From: Dehalococcoidia bacterium
GTDB lineage: Bacteria > Chloroflexota > Dehalococcoidia > SM23-28-2 > HRBIN24
Length of the DNA stretch: 49,999 nt
NCBI GenBank assembly: GCA_025062275.1
Contig: JANXAP010000034.1
Location: 1-49,999, forward strand
Direction of reading: 5' to 3'
Shown: piece after piece, positions 12,345-49,999 of the stretch
How positions within the stretch are numbered: the first letter of the stretch is position 1
Layout of the letters: the number at the start of each line of letters is the position of its first letter
Program-made: the position numbers and the translations under genes
Notes under the pieces: model-generated
Database searches by the model: none
The model's input: the letters and a program-made list of their open reading frames with translations, nothing else
What the model was told of the DNA's origin: nothing

Positions 12345-12787
12345 TTGGCGGCCCCCTCCCCGTGGTCGTGGCCCATCTCGGTGTAGAACTGGAAAAGCAC
12401 TCCCCCAGAGTCCCTGGGGTGGATGAACGTCTCGCCCCAGTCGTGTCGGCGTCGGACTCCTCCCCACGGCTCGATGCCGAACGCCCGGATGGCCTCGGCC
12501 GCGCGGTCGGCATCTTCGACGATGAAGGTGACGTGGTGAAGGCCTGGGCCGCGCTCCCGCAGGAAGCGAACCAGGAAGGAGTCCTCGCCGACAGGCTCCA
12601 GCACCTCGAACTCGGTGTTGGTCCCCGGCACCCGCAGGGCCACGCCGGCATAGCCCTGCTCCTCGTCGCGGAAGCGGGCCACTACCTCCATACCCATGAG
12701 CTGGGTCAGGAGGGGAAGGACGTCGTCTATCTTCCAGACGGCCCAGCTGACGTGGTCCATGCGCTTGATGCCCATAGGGTTGGCCAT
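12341..12787 (-). CDS. VOC (glyoxalase/epimerase-like) family protein
   Basis: 148 residues, two beta-alpha-beta-beta-beta modules as in methylmalonyl-CoA epimerase: MDHVSWAVWKIDDVLP in the first, GLHHVTFIVEDADRAAE in the second, with an E in FEVLEP and a C-terminal VLFQFY. The histidines and glutamate fit metal ligands, though the last ligand position carries Q rather than E. The C-terminus ends GHDHGE, two more His. The ATG at 12787 follows an AGGAGGG site; earlier in-frame starts are not needed. Methylmalonyl-CoA epimerase is possible but not sure. Confidence 0.8.
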   Translation of the reverse strand: MANPMGIKRMDHVSWAVWKIDDVLPLLTQLMGMEVVARFRDEEQGYAGVALRVPGTNTEFEVLEPVGEDSFLVRFLRERGPGLHHVTFIVEDADRAAEAIRAFGIEPWGGVRRRHDWGETFIHPRDSGGVLFQFYTEMGHDHGEGAAK

Positions 12788-42797: not shown

Positions 42798-43538
42798 ATG
42801 CCAGTCACCAGGCTTCGGCGACGACGCCAGCCCCTGCTGGAGGGCGTGGAGGCCGTGGCCTTCGATGGCTACGGCACCATCTTCGACTACTCGGAGGCCG
42901 ACTTCATAGCCACCTTCGCCGAGCTGCTGGCCGCCCAGGGCATCGAGGCCGATGCCGCCGAGCTGTGGCGCTACTTCCTGCAGGCCGCCCGTCGCCTCCG
43001 CAGCGAGAACCACCACCGGCCCGTTTACCTGCGCTTCTTGGAGGCCTGGACACGACAGTTCGAGGACTCCTTTCGCCGCCTGGGTGTGCAGGGCGATGCG
43101 CGCGCGGCCGCCCTCTTCGTGCGGCAGCGCCTGTCGGAAGCGAGAGTCCACCCCGAGGTGCCGCAAGTGCTGTCGGCCCTGGCCCCCCGCTATCGCCTCG
43201 CTCTCCTGTCCAATGCCGACAACGATTTCCTGACAGCAGCGCTGGAGCGCAACGGACTCCACTTCGACATCGTCGTCACCTCGGAGCTGGCGGGCGCGCT
43301 GAAGCCGGACCCGCGCATCTTCCAGGTCCTTCTGGACCGGCTGGGACTGCCTCCCCAGGCAGTGCTCTATGTGGGCGATAATCCCCTGCCCGATGTGCTG
43401 GGGGCGCGCAGGGCAGGCCTGCGTGTGGCCTGGCTGGACCGGGAGGGGAGACGACGCCCCCGCAGCGTGCCTGCTCCCGACTTGAAGGTCCGTTCCCTGC
43501 TGGAGCTGCTGCCAGCCCTGGGACTGGGGAATGGCTGA
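42798..43538 (+). CDS. HAD-superfamily hydrolase
   Basis: 246 residues. Motif I FDGYGTIFD (the Asp-Gly-Tyr-Gly-Thr form of haloacid-type HADs), motif II LLSNAD, motif III lysine in LKPDPRIFQ and motif IV VGDNPLPDVLGARRAG. Cytoplasmic phosphatase or dehalogenase; substrate unknown. ATG start 13 bases after hemB; overlaps hemL by 8 bases, so it belongs to the heme operon, where it may remove a phosphate from a side product. Confidence 0.87.
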   Translation: MPVTRLRRRRQPLLEGVEAVAFDGYGTIFDYSEADFIATFAELLAAQGIEADAAELWRYFLQAARRLRSENHHRPVYLRFLEAWTRQFEDSFRRLGVQGDARAAALFVRQRLSEARVHPEVPQVLSALAPRYRLALLSNADNDFLTAALERNGLHFDIVVTSELAGALKPDPRIFQVLLDRLGLPPQAVLYVGDNPLPDVLGARRAGLRVAWLDREGRRRPRSVPAPDLKVRSLLELLPALGLGNG

Positions 43539-44811
43539 GGGCAATCGCCTGCTGATGGAACGGGCGCGGGGGCTGATGCCGGGCGGCGTCTCCAGCCCCG
43601 CGCGCTCCTTTAGGGCAGTCGCTACCGAGCCTGTCGTGGCCGTGCGCGGCGCTGGCTCCCGGCTGTGGGATGCCGACGGCCGCGAATACATCGACTACCT
43701 GATGGCCTTCGGCCCGCTCATTCTGGGCCACGCCCATCCCCGGGTGGTGGCTGCCGTCCAGGAGGCAGCGGCCCACGGCACCGCCTACGGACTCACCAAC
43801 GAGCTGGAGGTGGAGCTGGCATCGCTGTTGCGAGAGGCGCTGCCTTCGCTGGAGTTGGTCCGTTTCGTCAACTCGGGCACCGAGGCCACCATGTCGGCCT
43901 TGCGGCTGGCCCGGGCCTACACCGGCCGCACCAAGATAATCAAGTTCGAGGGCTGCTACCACGGCCATGCCGACGGACTGCTGGCCAGGGCGGGCTCGGG
44001 CGCTGCCACCCTCTCCCTGCCCGACAGCCCTGGCGTGCCTCCCTCCTATGCCGCCGAGACCATCGTCCTGCCCTACAACGACCTGGCGGCCGTATCCGCC
44101 CTCTTTGCCGAACGGGGCGAGGAGATAGCGGCGGTCATCGTGGAGCCAGTGGCAGCCAACATGGGCGTGGTGCCGCCGGAGCCCGGCTTCCTGGAGGGGC
44201 TGCGGCAAGTGACCCAGCGCTACGGCGCGCTGCTGGTGTTCGATGAGGTGGTGACGGGCTTCCGACTCTGCTGGGGGGGCGCCCAGACGGTCTACGGCGT
44301 CACGCCCGACCTGACCTGCCTGGGAAAGGTCATCGGCGGCGGCCTGCCGGTGGGGGCCTACGGCGGCCGCCGCGACGTCATGGAGATGGTGGCCCCTCTG
44401 GGCCCTGTCTACCAGGCGGGGACGCTGGCTGGCAACCCGCTGGCCATGGCCGCTGGCGTGGCCACCTTGCGCTTGCTGCGAGACGAAGCCCCTTACGGGC
44501 GGCTGGAGGACCTCTCGGCGCGGCTCGAGTCGGGGCTGGTTGCGGCCCTAGCCGAGCTGGGGGTAACCGCCACGGTGCAGAGGGTGGCCTCCATGCTCAC
44601 CGTCTTCTTTGCGGCGGGGCCGGTGCGCGACTACGCCTCGGCGAGGAAGTCCGATACGGGCCTCTTCGGCCGCTTCTTTGCCGCCATGCTGGAGCAGGGG
44701 GTGCTGCTGCCGCCGTCCCAGTTCGAGGCCTGGTTCGTCTCCCTGGCCCACAGCGAGGACGACATCGAGGCCACAGTGGCAGCTGCCCGCCGGGCTCTGG
44801 CCAGCCTGTAG
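43531..44811 (+). CDS. hemL: Glutamate-1-semialdehyde 2,1-aminomutase
   Basis: 426 residues. GGVSSPARSF start, RFVNSGTEATMSALRLAR, KFEGCYHGHADGLLA and PLP lysine K266 in CLGKVIGGGLPVGAYGG. Makes 5-aminolevulinate from the product of HemA. Last gene of the heme operon; tRNA-Sec follows 66 bases after it. PLP-dependent. Confidence 0.95.
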   Translation: MAEGNRLLMERARGLMPGGVSSPARSFRAVATEPVVAVRGAGSRLWDADGREYIDYLMAFGPLILGHAHPRVVAAVQEAAAHGTAYGLTNELEVELASLLREALPSLELVRFVNSGTEATMSALRLARAYTGRTKIIKFEGCYHGHADGLLARAGSGAATLSLPDSPGVPPSYAAETIVLPYNDLAAVSALFAERGEEIAAVIVEPVAANMGVVPPEPGFLEGLRQVTQRYGALLVFDEVVTGFRLCWGGAQTVYGVTPDLTCLGKVIGGGLPVGAYGGRRDVMEMVAPLGPVYQAGTLAGNPLAMAAGVATLRLLRDEAPYGRLEDLSARLESGLVAALAELGVTATVQRVASMLTVFFAAGPVRDYASARKSDTGLFGRFFAAMLEQGVLLPPSQFEAWFVSLAHSEDDIEATVAAARRALASL

Positions 44812-44866
44812 AGGGGGCTAGGGGGCCTGGCCGAGCCTCTGCTGTGTCAGCGGTCAGGCGCTAAAG

Positions 44867-44872
44867 TATAGA
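44867..44872 (+). promoter_or_regulatory. -10 box for tRNA-Sec
   Basis: TATAGA ending five bases before the tRNA, with GTGTCA (44844-44849) as weak -35. This would start transcription at the first base of the tRNA. Confidence 0.4.
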
Positions 44873-44877
44873 CGGGC

Positions 44878-44974
44878 GGGAGTGGCAGGGGCCCGGTGGC
44901 CCTCCCGGTCTTCAAAACCGTGGCGGGGCGGCGTGCCCGTCCCGGGTGGGTTCGACTCCCATACACTCCCGCCA
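44878..44974 (+). tRNA. selC: tRNA-Sec, anticodon TCA, with encoded CCA
   Basis: 97 bases, not the usual 76. Anticodon loop CTTCAAA with TCA at 44912-44914 matches the E. coli selC loop. Acceptor GGGAGTGG pairs with ACACTCCC (7 pairs plus one G-A mismatch), discriminator G and encoded CCA. A 6-bp D stem with a CGGT loop, a long G/C-rich variable arm and a T arm GTGGG-TTCGACT-CCCAT. The extended acceptor, long D stem and variable arm are the selenocysteine hallmarks. No selA, selB or selD lies in the window. Its 3' end abuts a mobile element. Confidence 0.92.
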
Positions 44975-45026
44975 ATACGATTTCGCCCCCGGGCGGCCTC
45001 CCGAACCTGCCTCAGGCCCCTCCACC

Positions 45027-45052
45027 AATTGTCGGCAAATTGTCGGGCGACA
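45027..45052 (+). promoter_or_regulatory. Operator-like repeats before the integrase
   Basis: AATTGTCGG at 45027-45035 and again at 45038-45046, spaced 11 bases, and an inverted TGTCG-GG-CGACA at 45041-45052. A possible promoter TTGTCG (45029-45034)-N18-CTTTAT (45053-45058) overlaps them, so a repressor could control integrase expression. Confidence 0.45.
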
Positions 45053-45084
45053 CTTTATGGGCCCTCGGCAGGGAGGGATGGCCC

Positions 45085-46155
45085 ATGCCGAGGCGGGCCC
45101 GCCACGAGGGGACAGTCTACAAGCGCCCTGACAGGAGCTACTGGGAGGGAGGCGTCTCCCTGGGCGGCAAGCGCTACTGGGTGACGGGCAAGACCCGCTC
45201 GGAGGTGGTCGCCAAGCTCAGGGCCCTCGTCTCCCGCTACCAGGAGGGGAACCTAGCGCCCCCCTCTCGCCTTACCGTAGCCGACTGGGTAGCCGAATAC
45301 CTGGCCGATGCCGAGGGGAGGCTGAAGCCCAAGACTCTGGACACCTACCGGGCCGAGCTGGCGGCCCTCCTCCCCCACCTGGGGCGGGTGCGGCTAGTGC
45401 GCCTCTCGCCATTGCACATCCAGCGGGCCCTCCTGGAGCTCTCGGCCCAGGGGAAGGGGACCAGGCGGCTGCAGCTGTGCTGGGCTGCCCTCCATGCCTG
45501 CCTGGAGAGGGCGAGGCGCCTGGGGCTCCTGGGCAGCAACCCCTGCGACCAGGTGCCAAAGCCCGCCCATCAGAGGCGGGAGGCCAGGGAGTGGGGTATC
45601 GAGGAGATGAGACGGTTCCTGGCCGAGGCCGCCGCCGACCCTCACCCCCTGTCGAAGATGCTGGGCCTGGCGCTCCTGACGGGCATGAGGGTGGGGGAGC
45701 TCCTGGGCCTGGAATGGGGAGACGTGGACTGGCAGGACGCCGTGTTGAGGGTCAGGCGCAGCGTGGTCTGGGCCAGCGACGGCTGGCACCTGGGCGGGCC
45801 GAAGAGCAGGGCGGGCGAGCGGGCCATCACCCTTCCCGCCCTGGCTCTACGCCTCCTGGAGGGGCTGCCCCGGGACTCGGTGCACTTGTTCTGGCGGGCG
45901 AGGCCCCCCCGTTCCCGCACCATCAGCGAGGCCATGGCCACTTTGTGCGAGCGGGCGGGGGTGCCCAGGCGCCCCGCCCACTATTTGCGCCACTGCCATG
46001 CAGCGCTGCTTGCCGCCCAAGGCCTCGATATCAAGACCCTCCAGAGGCGCCTTGGCCATGCCCAAGCGTCCCTCACCCTGGACGTCTACGCCCACGCCCT
46101 CTCGGAGATGGACAGGAGGGCGGCGGAGCTGGTGGATGAGGCGCTGGCCACGTGA
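45085..46155 (+). CDS. Tyrosine-type site-specific integrase
   Basis: 356 residues. N-terminal arm-binding-like domain (GTVYKRPDRSYWEGGV, KTRSEVVAKLRAL), core SAM-like domain from about 62, then the catalytic domain: R202 in LTGMRVGEL, K240 in GGPKSRAG, H299-x-x-R302 in AHYLRHCH, H325 in RLGHAQ and nucleophile Y335 in LDVYAHAL. All catalytic residues are intact. ATG 45085 has GGGAGGG seven bases upstream; the longer frame starts inside the tRNA and is rejected. Integrates the element, likely at selC. Confidence 0.95.
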   Translation: MPRRARHEGTVYKRPDRSYWEGGVSLGGKRYWVTGKTRSEVVAKLRALVSRYQEGNLAPPSRLTVADWVAEYLADAEGRLKPKTLDTYRAELAALLPHLGRVRLVRLSPLHIQRALLELSAQGKGTRRLQLCWAALHACLERARRLGLLGSNPCDQVPKPAHQRREAREWGIEEMRRFLAEAAADPHPLSKMLGLALLTGMRVGELLGLEWGDVDWQDAVLRVRRSVVWASDGWHLGGPKSRAGERAITLPALALRLLEGLPRDSVHLFWRARPPRSRTISEAMATLCERAGVPRRPAHYLRHCHAALLAAQGLDIKTLQRRLGHAQASLTLDVYAHALSEMDRRAAELVDEALAT

Positions 46156-46238: not shown

Positions 46239-46454
46239 ATGCTGCGCACGGACACCGAACATGTCAGTGTCTCACAGGCCGCCCGGCGGCTCGGGCTAAG
46301 CCATATCCGTATTCGTCAGCTCATCGCCGAGGGCAGGCTCACCGCAGTTCGCACGGTGTTGGGCCACCTAATATCGGCGGACTCGGTTGAAGCGCTGGCG
46401 GCAGAAAGAGAGAGACGGCAGCGAGAAAGGAGGGCAAATGGCGAAAAGGCTTAA
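46239..46454 (+). CDS. Excisionase-like helix-turn-helix protein
   Basis: 71 residues. VSVSQAARRLGLSHIRIRQL, IAEGRLTAVRTVLGHLISAD is the winged-helix DNA-binding pattern of Xis/excisionase-type proteins; the C-terminus is a basic-acidic helix. Placed directly after the integrase, with its own promoter and a GAGGAGGG ribosome site. Could be the recombination directionality factor or a transcription regulator. Confidence 0.8.
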   Translation: MLRTDTEHVSVSQAARRLGLSHIRIRQLIAEGRLTAVRTVLGHLISADSVEALAAERERRQRERRANGEKA

Positions 46455-46552: not shown

Positions 46553-47005
46553 TTGGCGCCTCACAATGATTTTACTGCTACCCGCTCAACAACGCAAGCT
46601 TTAACGGTCTACCGCCCTTCACTAGGGCGATGGGCCGTCATCGGCAAGCTAACGCAAGTCGATGGCGAGACTGTCCTAGCCGTGCCGTACAGGCGCCGCC
46701 AGCGCTTAGAAGGCCGCATCAGCCTGCCTGCCGTAGCCCTTCATTACGCCGCCGAGCAAGGTGCCACCGCCATTATTGTGCGACTCGACAGCGAGCGGCT
46801 GGCCTACCGCCTGCCACTGGCCGAGGCCCTTCGCATCGGCAGCCCGGGGACAGTAGACGGGCAGGCAGAAATCTGGCTCCGGCTCGATGACTTCACCGAG
46901 GTAGGCTGGCCCGATTGGCCCTTCGCCACACGAGAGGTAAAGCTTGGGCCGGGGCCTGAGAGTTTCCCACGGCAGTTGGCGCTCATGGCGGAGGTGGCAG
47001 GATGA
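46553..47005 (+). CDS. Unrecognised small protein of the element
   Basis: 150 residues, TTG start after AGAAGGAGGG. No family recognised. Has a beta-rich look: [58 protein letters not shown] and [16 protein letters not shown]. Ends by ATGA overlap with the primase gene, so it probably acts in replication. Confidence 0.6.
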
Positions 47006-49065
47006 CTGCCGCCGACCGCCTCTCCCCCGTTTTGGCCCGCCTGGAGGAGCTGACCTGCCGTCCCGTGCGCTACCGCAACGGCACGTGGGCTGCCCTATGT
47101 CCGGCCCACGATGACCAGCACCGGAGCCTGTCGCTCAGCGAAGGCGAGGACGGGAGAGTCCTCATTCGCTGCCACGCAGGGTGCGACACCGAGGCGGTGC
47201 TGGAGCGCCTCGGCCTGTCTTGGGCCGACCTGTTTCCACCAGGCGAGCGTCGCAATGGCCACCAGCCGGACAAGCGCCAGGCCCAACAGCCGGGTGTAGC
47301 AGACCCGCTGACCTGGTGGGCAGAACGTTGCGGTGTGCCTCGGGAGTGGTTGCGCAGGCTGCCCATCGAGGCCAAGGACGGGGCCATAGCTTTTACCTGG
47401 CCTACCCTGGGCGTGGCTAAGCTGCGTTCGCCCGAGGCTAAGGGATACTGGGCCGGTGATGGCCCACGTCCCCCCTTTTGGCCCGCCCTGGCTGAGGCCA
47501 TGCCGCCGGTGCTGGTGCTGTGCGAGGGAGAGAGTGACGCCACAGTGGCCCTCTACGCCCTGGAAGCAGCAGGGCTACGGGAGGTAGCATCCGCCCATGC
47601 AGTGACGAAGGGGGCCGCCGCAAAGCCCGACGGCGCCATTCTGCGAGAAGTGATGGCCAGGGGTGCCCGGGCGCTCCTGGTGGTGGCCGACGCTGACGAG
47701 GCCGGGGAGAGGGCAGCCCGCCACTGGGTGAACGTTGCCCAGGAAGTAGGCCTGGCCGCCGCCACATTCGACCTGGTAGGTAGGGGCCTGGTGGCCCCCT
47801 CCCTGGGCGAAAAAGACCTGCGGGACGCATTCCGCCGCCAGTCCGTGGGGGTCATGGCCGCCCTCAAGGAAGCGGTGGAGGCCCTGGCCGACGGTGCCGC
47901 TGGCCCAGTGCCCTGGCGCACGTTGGACGAGGCCGAGGGTGACACCCATGTCACGTGGGCGTGGGAGGGCTACATTGGCTATGGGTGCGTCACGCTTTTG
48001 TCGGCGAGACCCAAATGGGGCAAGTCCACGCTGATATGGCACCTGCTGCGAGCCCTGGCGAGCGGGGCCGGCGAGTTTCTAGGGCAGGAGGCTTCCTTGC
48101 CCGAAGGCGCCTGGGCCCTCGTGGCCACGGAGGAGCCCCCCGCCGTCGTCATAGAGCGGGCCCAGGCCCTGGGCCTGCCCGCAGACGGCCCCGTGCGAGT
48201 GCTCTACAGGAAGGACGTGCCCACCTGGGCGCAGGCGCTTTCCGTCTTCGAGCGAGCCGCCAATGAGGGGGCCCGCCTGTTGGTGGTGGACACGTTCTCG
48301 GCCTGGGCAGGCGTGGAGGATGAAAACGCAGCCAGCCATGTTGAGGCCGCCATTCGCCCGCTGGTGAACCTGGCGCAGCGCTGGGGCCTGGCCGTTGTCA
48401 TCCTCCATCACCGGCGCAAGGCCGACGGGGCCGAGGGCACCGGGCACCGGGGTTCATCAGCCTTAGTCGGGGCAGTGGACATCGCCATCGAGATGAAAGG
48501 CGAGGAAGGGGGGCCCAACCGCCGCAAGCTTGAAGCGCTCTCCCGCTTTGAGGCGACGCCCCGTGACTTGGTCATTGAGCTGCAAGGCGGTGACTACGTC
48601 GCCATCGGTAGTGGGGAGCGGGCCGCCTTCAGACGGGCGTTGCGCATCATTCATGACCTTTTGCCCGGCCCTGACGACGAGCCCACCAGCGCCTACAAGC
48701 TGGCCCAGTTGGCCCGGGAGGCCGGGGCCAGCGGGGCAGCCGCCACGACTCTGGCCCGTGTCCTTCGTTGGCTTGCCGAGAAGGGAGAGGTCCAGGCCAT
48801 CCAGCTGCCCGGGAAGGCTGGAGTGGCCTACAGGTGGGCGGCGGCGGGGGGGCAGGGGCGAGGTGGAAAGTTAGTGTCGGTTCGTCCATCCAAGCATAAG
48901 TATAGGGGGTGGATGGATGAACCTTCGTCCAACCAAGCACCTATATATATGCTTGGTGGACGAAACGAACGGCCCGGCCGCCCCCCTGAAGCTCCCCCAC
49001 CTGCCGCCCCCGCCGACCCCGATGACGACCTGCTGTTGTTTGAGCCAGAGGAGGGGACAGCATGA
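47002..49065 (+). CDS. Primase-helicase (zinc finger, TOPRIM, RepA/DnaB-like ATPase)
   Basis: 687 residues. Zinc finger of CHC2 type: C33-x2-H36 (LCPAHDD), C57 and C61 (RCHAGC). TOPRIM: E175 in LCEGESDA, D230 and D232 in [13 protein letters not shown]. RecA-like ATPase: [10 protein letters not shown] (residues 335-343), a Walker B LLVVDTF and VVILHHRRK. Winged-helix-like region after about 540, and a Pro-rich tail. Replicates mobile DNA. ATG overlaps the previous stop; the 3' end contains an unusual repeat cluster. Confidence 0.92.
48879..48964 (+). repeat. Interleaved direct and inverted repeats inside the primase gene
   Basis: TTCGTCCAtCCAAGCA at 48881-48896 and TTCGTCCAaCCAAGCA at 48924-48939 (15 of 16 identical, 43 bases apart), and the reverse complement TGCTTGGTGGACGAA at 48950-48964. 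The first also pairs with GGATGGATGAACC (48911-48923) through GGTTCGTCCATCC (48879-48891), 12 of 13. Two neighbouring hairpins with loops of 19 and 10 bases, the second loop being the AT-rich CCTATATATA. The repeat lies in a low-complexity part of the protein. Confidence 0.85.
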
Positions 49066-49532
49066 CCGCCACACTCGACCTGTTGCGCCGTGCCCGTCAA
49101 CTTGGCCTAACGCTGCGGGTTGATGGCGGCCGCCTGGTTGTGCGGGGCAAGCGGACGCCCGAGGTGGATGCACTCCTGCGGGATATGCGGCCCCATGCAG
49201 CCGAGCTGGTTCGGTTGCTCCAACCACCCCGCTCCGCCTCCCCCCTCGTGGCAGCGGCCCTGGAGCTGGGCGCTAGGCCGCCGCTGAAGTTCACAGTGCT
49301 GGAGACCTCGGACGAGGCCGCCGATTCCAGGTTCATGGCCAGGGTCGCCGCCTTGCTCGCTGAGTTTCCTGGACAAGATGCGGTCGTGATGACTGTGCGG
49401 ACGCTAGACGGCCGCCGCCGTCGCTTCTTATGGCGGGCCGCCGCCTGCCCTGGCCTCCGCCGGGCCTTGGCGGGGCTCCTACGGGAGCGGGCCCTGCGGC
49501 CACCTGCGCCGACGGGAGGGGGGCGGCCATGA
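49062..49532 (+). CDS. TubC-docking-like protein of the element
   Basis: 156 residues. The first 50 residues, [20 protein letters not shown] and [21 protein letters not shown], look like the TubC N-terminal docking fold common in phage and integrative-element proteins. The C-terminus ([20 protein letters not shown]) is not assigned. ATGA overlap with the primase, ATGA overlap with the next gene. Arg-rich end. Confidence 0.6.
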
Positions 49533-49657
49533 GGCGTGAGAGGCGTGAGACGATCGTCTCACACAGGCGCCGGTGCCGGCGGTGTGGGGAGCCTCTGCCG
49601 CCGAGGTGGCTGCCATACCTGTGCCCTGCTTGCCTCCTTGAGGAGTTCCTGAAATGA
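49529..49657 (+). CDS. 42-residue zinc-ribbon microprotein
   Basis: C16-x2-C19 (CRRCGE) and C32-x2-C35 (CPAC) make a four-cysteine zinc ribbon with a strongly basic N-terminus. Too short for most automated annotation, but ATGA overlaps at both ends tie it to the operon. Its codons 6-12 contain an 18-bp perfect palindrome. May bind DNA or RNA. Confidence 0.6.
   Translation: MRRERRETIVSHRRRCRRCGEPLPPRWLPYLCPACLLEEFLK
49545..49562 (+). repeat. 18-bp perfect palindrome
   Basis: GTGAGACGATCGTCTCAC, fully symmetric, preceded by an overlapping GAGGCGTGA repeated twice (49531-49548). It lies inside the microprotein gene and resembles a dimer-binding site. Confidence 0.85.
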
Positions 49658-49999
49658 CCGCCATCCCGACCCTCCGGGCCCGCCGCCTAAACGTCGGTGG
49701 GCAGAGGCTCTACGAGGTGGACGGCAAGCTTTACCCCAGTGTCACGACTATCCTGGCGGTGGTCAGTAAGCCAAACGTGGCCGCCTGGGCCCGCAGGACC
49801 ACGTTGGCGGCCGTGCGGGAGATGCTCAACGACGGCCTGACGGTAGACCAAGCCCTAGCCCTCGCAGCGGAAGAGCCAGAGAGGGTGCGGGATGCGGCTG
49901 CCACCAGGGGCACAGCTATCCACGATGCGGTTGCCGCCGCCCTCGCTGGCGGCCCCTATCCGCCAGAGGCCGAACCCTACGTCAGGGCGGCCCTGGGCT
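49654..49999 (+). CDS. PD-(D/E)XK-type nuclease-like protein (3' end cut)
   Basis: First 115 residues, open to the window end. YPSVTTIL (27-34), KPNVAAWARR and ATRGTAIHD (84-91) match the N-terminal pattern of phage and element nucleases of the RecB/Cas4-like PD-(D/E)XK group; the catalytic core should lie beyond the window. Starts with ATG overlapping the previous stop, so the operon goes on. Confidence 0.6.
   Translation, partial: MTAIPTLRARRLNVGGQRLYEVDGKLYPSVTTILAVVSKPNVAAWARRTTLAAVREMLNDGLTVDQALALAAEEPERVRDAAATRGTAIHDAVAAALAGGPYPPEAEPYVRAALG

Follow-up and report, generated by a model that had tools for sequence, protein, structure and literature searches.

A phage-like element very probably integrated at the selenocysteine tRNA gene of a Dehalococcoidia bacterium

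Results and discussion

In the DNA analysed here, the selenocysteine tRNA gene (selC) and the genes after it are very probably the left end (attL) of an integrative element, a prophage or phage-like, that a tyrosine integrase recombined into selC. The window (the whole stretch of DNA analysed) is the complete contig C34, 49,999 bp long, of a genome designated G000 (1.81 Mb, 41 contigs, 95% complete). It shows the following features in and around the insertion point:

43531..44811, + strand: hemL-type aminotransferase (class III), chromosomal, left of selC (PF00202, 4.9e-80)
44878..44974, + strand: selC, tRNA-Sec(TCA), complete, CCA encoded, attL side (ARAGORN; RF01852, 74.9 bits)
44890..44978, + strand: att core, 89 bp (tRNA nt 13-97 plus ATAC); second copy at G000:C9:1188-1276
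45029..45047, + strand: putative arm-type integrase sites, TTGTCGGC AAA TTGTCGGG, 11-bp period; partner pair on the attR side at C9 1139 and 1150
45085..46155, + strand: tyrosine integrase, 356 aa, reading away from selC (PF00589, 2e-21; PF14659, 4e-7; PHROG phrog_1, 2.4e-63)
46239..46454, + strand: helix-turn-helix (HTH) protein, 71 aa (PF21531, 1.9e-6; phrog_57, terminase small subunit, 7.5e-7; phrog_66, excisionase/regulator, 3.6e-5)
46553..47005, + strand: element gene without match in Pfam or PHROG
47002..49065, + strand: primase-helicase, N-terminal part primase-like, C-terminal part RepA-like AAA_25 (PF13481, 1.1e-21; phrog_6088, DNA primase, 7.6e-16; phrog_239; phage RepA/primase matches)
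49062..49532, + strand: element gene without match in Pfam or PHROG
49654..49999, + strand: phage exonuclease-like gene, truncated where the contig ends (phrog_298, 2.5e-15)

The two ends of the element

The only tRNA gene in the window is tRNA-Sec (anticodon tca, 44878-44974 on the + strand according to ARAGORN), which scores 74.9 bits against Rfam family RF01852 (gathering score 47). Both programs thus agree with the preliminary description of this DNA, which had named a full selC gene with a TCA anticodon. Between the hemL stop codon and the start of the gene are 66 bp, and 110 bp separate its end from the integrase ATG. It is the sole intact selC copy of the genome and is 100% identical over 100 bp to selC of the congener G001. 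A separate observation concerns the eighth acceptor pair of tRNA-Sec (window 44885 and 44963; tRNA position 8 and its partner), which looks unpaired across most of the order: by eye it is G-A in the window and G-G in many relatives, with C-G possible in G046.

A search of the whole genome with window 44867-45100 yields exactly two places, the window itself and G000:C9:1188-1276. The latter is the second copy of the tRNA 3' end (attR) that had been proposed as a check: its 89 bp are identical (100%, E 1.4e-40) to window 44890-44978, in the same orientation, and span tRNA nt 13 to 4 bp past the CCA; beyond this both copies diverge. The C9 copy has small, co-oriented element ORFs to its left, one of which encodes a SWIM zinc finger, and dgt (HD domain, 1323-2399) followed by dnaG to its right. 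The genome therefore shows an intact tRNA gene at one end and a same-orientation 3' fragment at the other, on contigs (C34 and C9) that are not physically joined. The visible parts of the element, whose middle is missing from the assembly, measure at least 5.0 kb (C34) and 1.2 kb (C9), against a range of 2-200 kb for Islander-type elements.

It might be argued that the C9 copy is a duplicated selC (a segmental duplication or second tRNA gene) with the integrase as a chance neighbour. The copy keeps 85 of the 97 tRNA nt, still scores 62.1 bits against RF01852 (over the cut-off) and is called tRNA-Sec by ARAGORN; moreover, relative G043 has two diverged selC copies with duplicated flanks. However, the C9 copy lacks the acceptor strand on the 5' side and is predicted to fold with an unclosed acceptor stem, the identity ends 4 bp past the CCA, the same rare doublet lies on the element side of both copies (see below), and the gene adjoining attL is an integrase, with element genes present. 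We give duplication almost no credence.

The doublet belongs to a two-copy repeat with an 11-bp period (TTGTCGGC) that flanks the core on both sides, as TTGTCGGCAAATTGTCGG at 45029 on the attL side and as TTGTCGGCAATTTGTCGG at C9:1139, on the same strand, on the attR side. In 1.56 million strand-bases of the main compared loci, TTGTCG-N5-TTGTCG occurs 4 times: at attL and attR in G000, and once each beside selC in the relatives G010 and G021. The number expected in the window, allowing up to 2 mismatches, is 0.02. Pairs of putative arm-type sites accompany the integrases of tRNA-targeting phages (PMC10865867), and we infer the same role for the repeats seen here, with the N-terminal domain of the integrase as the part that binds them. 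In viral contigs the doublet gives 57 matches, one of which adjoins an integrase (of low identity, 20-26%, with the doublet just past the stop); outside this group of bacteria the doublet is therefore mostly due to chance. Similar 10-12-bp spacing, with another repeat sequence, is found at Thermus phage integrases, so a repeat pair near an integrase is ordinary even if the TTGTCG sequence is not.

These repeats also bear on the possibility that the window element and the C9 element are two different, partly lost insertions at two places. C34 and C9 are indeed separate contigs, between whose ends we found no overlap and which the assembly does not join, and tandem or decayed elements at selC occur in relatives (G021). 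Nonetheless, the genome has only these two near-identical selC copies, their orientation is right, and TTGTCGGCAAATTGTCGG and TTGTCGGCAATTTGTCGG are closer to each other than to the version of G010 and G021, TTGTCGCCC. Two separate insertions are in our view improbable.

Element genes and proposed integration

The preliminary description had placed a tyrosine integrase directly after selC, followed by replication genes, and the family searches listed above uphold both assignments. The integrase is best read from the ATG at 45085 to 46155. Its catalytic motifs are all present (R in TGMRVGE at 199, HxxR at 299, H in LGHA at 323, Y in DVYAH at 333), and Pfam recognizes a catalytic and a SAM-like domain. 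A tyrosine integrase gene thus lies inside the element, a mark of tDNA-integrated elements. The 71-aa HTH protein is a candidate excisionase or regulator, judging from its family matches. Together with the primase-helicase and the exonuclease-like gene it is encoded on the integrase strand, up to the contig end. Portal protein family PF04860, the one portal family searched for, gave no match in G000, in which the element sequence is incomplete. The element may be a phage or a phage satellite.

Relatives of these proteins are distant. With a back-translated query the integrase finds two loci in genome contigs and one in viral contigs (27-29% identity), and the primase finds eight distant loci in viral contigs. 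The nearest named phage matches to the integrase are Thermus phage integrases, at about 32%.

If a single element was integrated here, its attP would have included 85 nt of tRNA-Sec (nt 13-97). Because attP brought these nucleotides, a complete and usable selC would be present at attL, with the host's own 3' tRNA segment displaced to attR on C9, beside dgt-dnaG. Strand exchange may have taken place in or near the anticodon loop, since the cores of G000 and of relative G021 both span the whole anticodon arm. Excision would be possible with help from the HTH gene. The core of 89 bp is unusually long; mycobacteriophage cores typically measure 30-45 bp (PMC10865867).

Selenocysteine utilization

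G000 encodes SelA (573.7 bits), SelB (over the cut-off) and SelD (364.8 bits). The selD gene has one in-frame TGA in the context SCAG-TGA-AGKLG (U at TGA), at a position which we take to be the SelD active site. SelD is accordingly very likely a selenoprotein, which means that selenocysteine is used and that tRNA-Sec is required for making SelD. A TGA-bearing formate dehydrogenase, sought in G000 as a second selenoprotein, gave no match. The genome thus has selA, selB, selC and selD and at least one gene with an in-frame TGA, the combination that characterizes a selenocysteine-utilizing organism. It had been predicted from the tRNA gene that the organism makes selenoproteins, to be checked through selA/selB/selD and in-frame TGA codons; all are found, the TGA being that of SelD.

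Integration at selC in related genomes

A search with RF01852 gave some match in 120 of 120 genomes, and only those above about 60 bits were counted as selC; weaker matches, at about 47-55 bits, probably represent long-arm tRNAs of other kinds. The neighbourhoods of 40 selC loci were compared, the relatives being draft genomes. In genera g3, g5 and g9 the upstream flank aligns over about 1.8-4 kb, and the alignment breaks downstream at or just after the tRNA. Empty selC sites in relatives, suggested earlier as a comparison, turn up for two occupied loci. G020 has 2.8 kb extra compared to the empty sites of G016 and G014, and the tRNA tail recurs over 27 nt at the end of this segment; G006 has 1.7 kb extra compared to those of G009 and G019, with no tail copy detectable.

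Two further relatives have an integrase close to selC. In G021 a 76-nt copy of the tRNA (97%) lies 181 bp downstream, past a run of N, and is followed by the integrase; in G010 the integrase lies 104 bp downstream of selC. The two integrases are 69% identical, but each is only 30-36% identical to that of the window, and they face the tRNA whereas the window integrase leads away from it. At least two integrase lineages therefore use selC. The cores of G000 and G021 cover the whole anticodon arm, whereas the 27-nt core of G020 is confined to the 3' part of the T arm plus the acceptor strand; these spans fit two crossover classes described in PMC4383910, anticodon and T/junction. These comparisons show that selC is a recurrent insertion point across the order, hit repeatedly.

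Some loci stand apart. G004 and G008 (L053, L057) have selC-holA segments of 1.2 and 3.0 kb, each with a GGDEF-like gene (by eye); no integrase was found in these segments. Although selC is usually single-copy, G043 has two diverged tRNA-Sec genes 4.4 kb apart (L084:7942-8039 and 12423-12520) with duplicated flanks, while G115 (L085, L086) and G011 (L060, L087) each show two identical or near-identical copies at contig ends. The contig-end pairs point to repeats at which the assembly broke, and possibly to further selC-flanked elements.

Chromosomal position of selC

Most of the other genera in the order have selC between trxA/trxB upstream and holA downstream (gene names assigned from sequence). 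In the family of G000-G003, trxB and holA are still adjacent in 4 of 4 genomes and selC is elsewhere in each: G000 has it between hemL and dgt, G001 next to an SDR gene, G002 close to tRNA-Pro and tilS, and G003 close to tRNA-Ile/Ala. Six relatives (G001, G002, G003, G005, G007, G011) have dnaN after hemL, where G000 has selC. The gene therefore sits at a rearrangement seam, namely window 44811-44878 and G000:C9:1268-1323, with dgt on the other side. Integrase action at selC fails to explain the move, because recombination within the tRNA core would, on its own, leave the upstream flank in place. For the selC flanks of G001 no clear counterpart was found in G000 (2,376 of 5,349 nt searched: the left flank plus some of the right-hand one).

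The closest relative of the window integrase is an internally deleted copy (75% over 71 aa) right after tRNA-Pro in G002 (L130:7829-8488), 1.5 kb from the selC of that genome. This suggests that near-relative integrases can use different tRNA genes. That selC itself is mobile in the family, with almost the whole tRNA-Sec gene riding on integrative elements and moved between chromosomal sites, is an idea we regard as unlikely.

Comparison with known elements

The selC gene is the classical integration site of enterobacterial islands such as LEE, and the element of G000 shares this site with them. Host and cargo differ: the visible end holds phage-type replication genes, and searches of both visible ends with Pfam and PHROG gave no LEE or pathogenicity island cargo genes. 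Outside the Enterobacteriaceae, tRNA-Sec also serves as attB for Burkholderia phage PhiE067 (19 bp shared; PMC7266877), the Pseudomonas Pf-tRNA-Sec phages (27 bp; PMC7549136) and a Paracoccus yeei prophage (15 nt; PMC6209633). These are in other hosts, and their shared sequence, at the 3' end of the tRNA, is just 15-27 bp long, compared to 89 bp in G000. The preliminary description was right about selC integration in a non-enterobacterial lineage, although the novelty it implied was overstated in view of these three cases.

In its architecture the element resembles Islander class A (PMC4383910): a tyrosine integrase, an intact tDNA at one end, a same-orientation 3' fragment at the other and a core over the anticodon arm. 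What sets it apart is the target, tRNA-Sec, and the core of 89 bp. The phages with tRNA-dependent lysogeny (PMC10865867) likewise have paired putative arm sites and an attB in a single-copy tRNA gene. There, however, the host tRNA is destroyed and not rebuilt, the core measures about 10 bp and the phages carry their own tRNA; in G000 selC is rebuilt and complete at attL.

In Dehalococcoides, probably of the same class, RNA genes are integration hotspots as well, with islands described at ssrA, tRNA-Ala, tRNA-Val and tRNA-Lys (PMC2764846, PMC3146451); selC is not among the sites named in the available portions of these two papers. We found no report in the literature of selC integration in this bacterial group.

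Conclusions

The results extend selC as a landing site of phages and islands to a lineage of uncultured bacteria. A copy of the tRNA-Sec tail together with the TTGTCG doublet provides a ready marker for mobile elements in the group. Finally, selC is single-copy, yet no two sampled genomes of the family have it in the same neighbourhood; the cause of this is a testable question.
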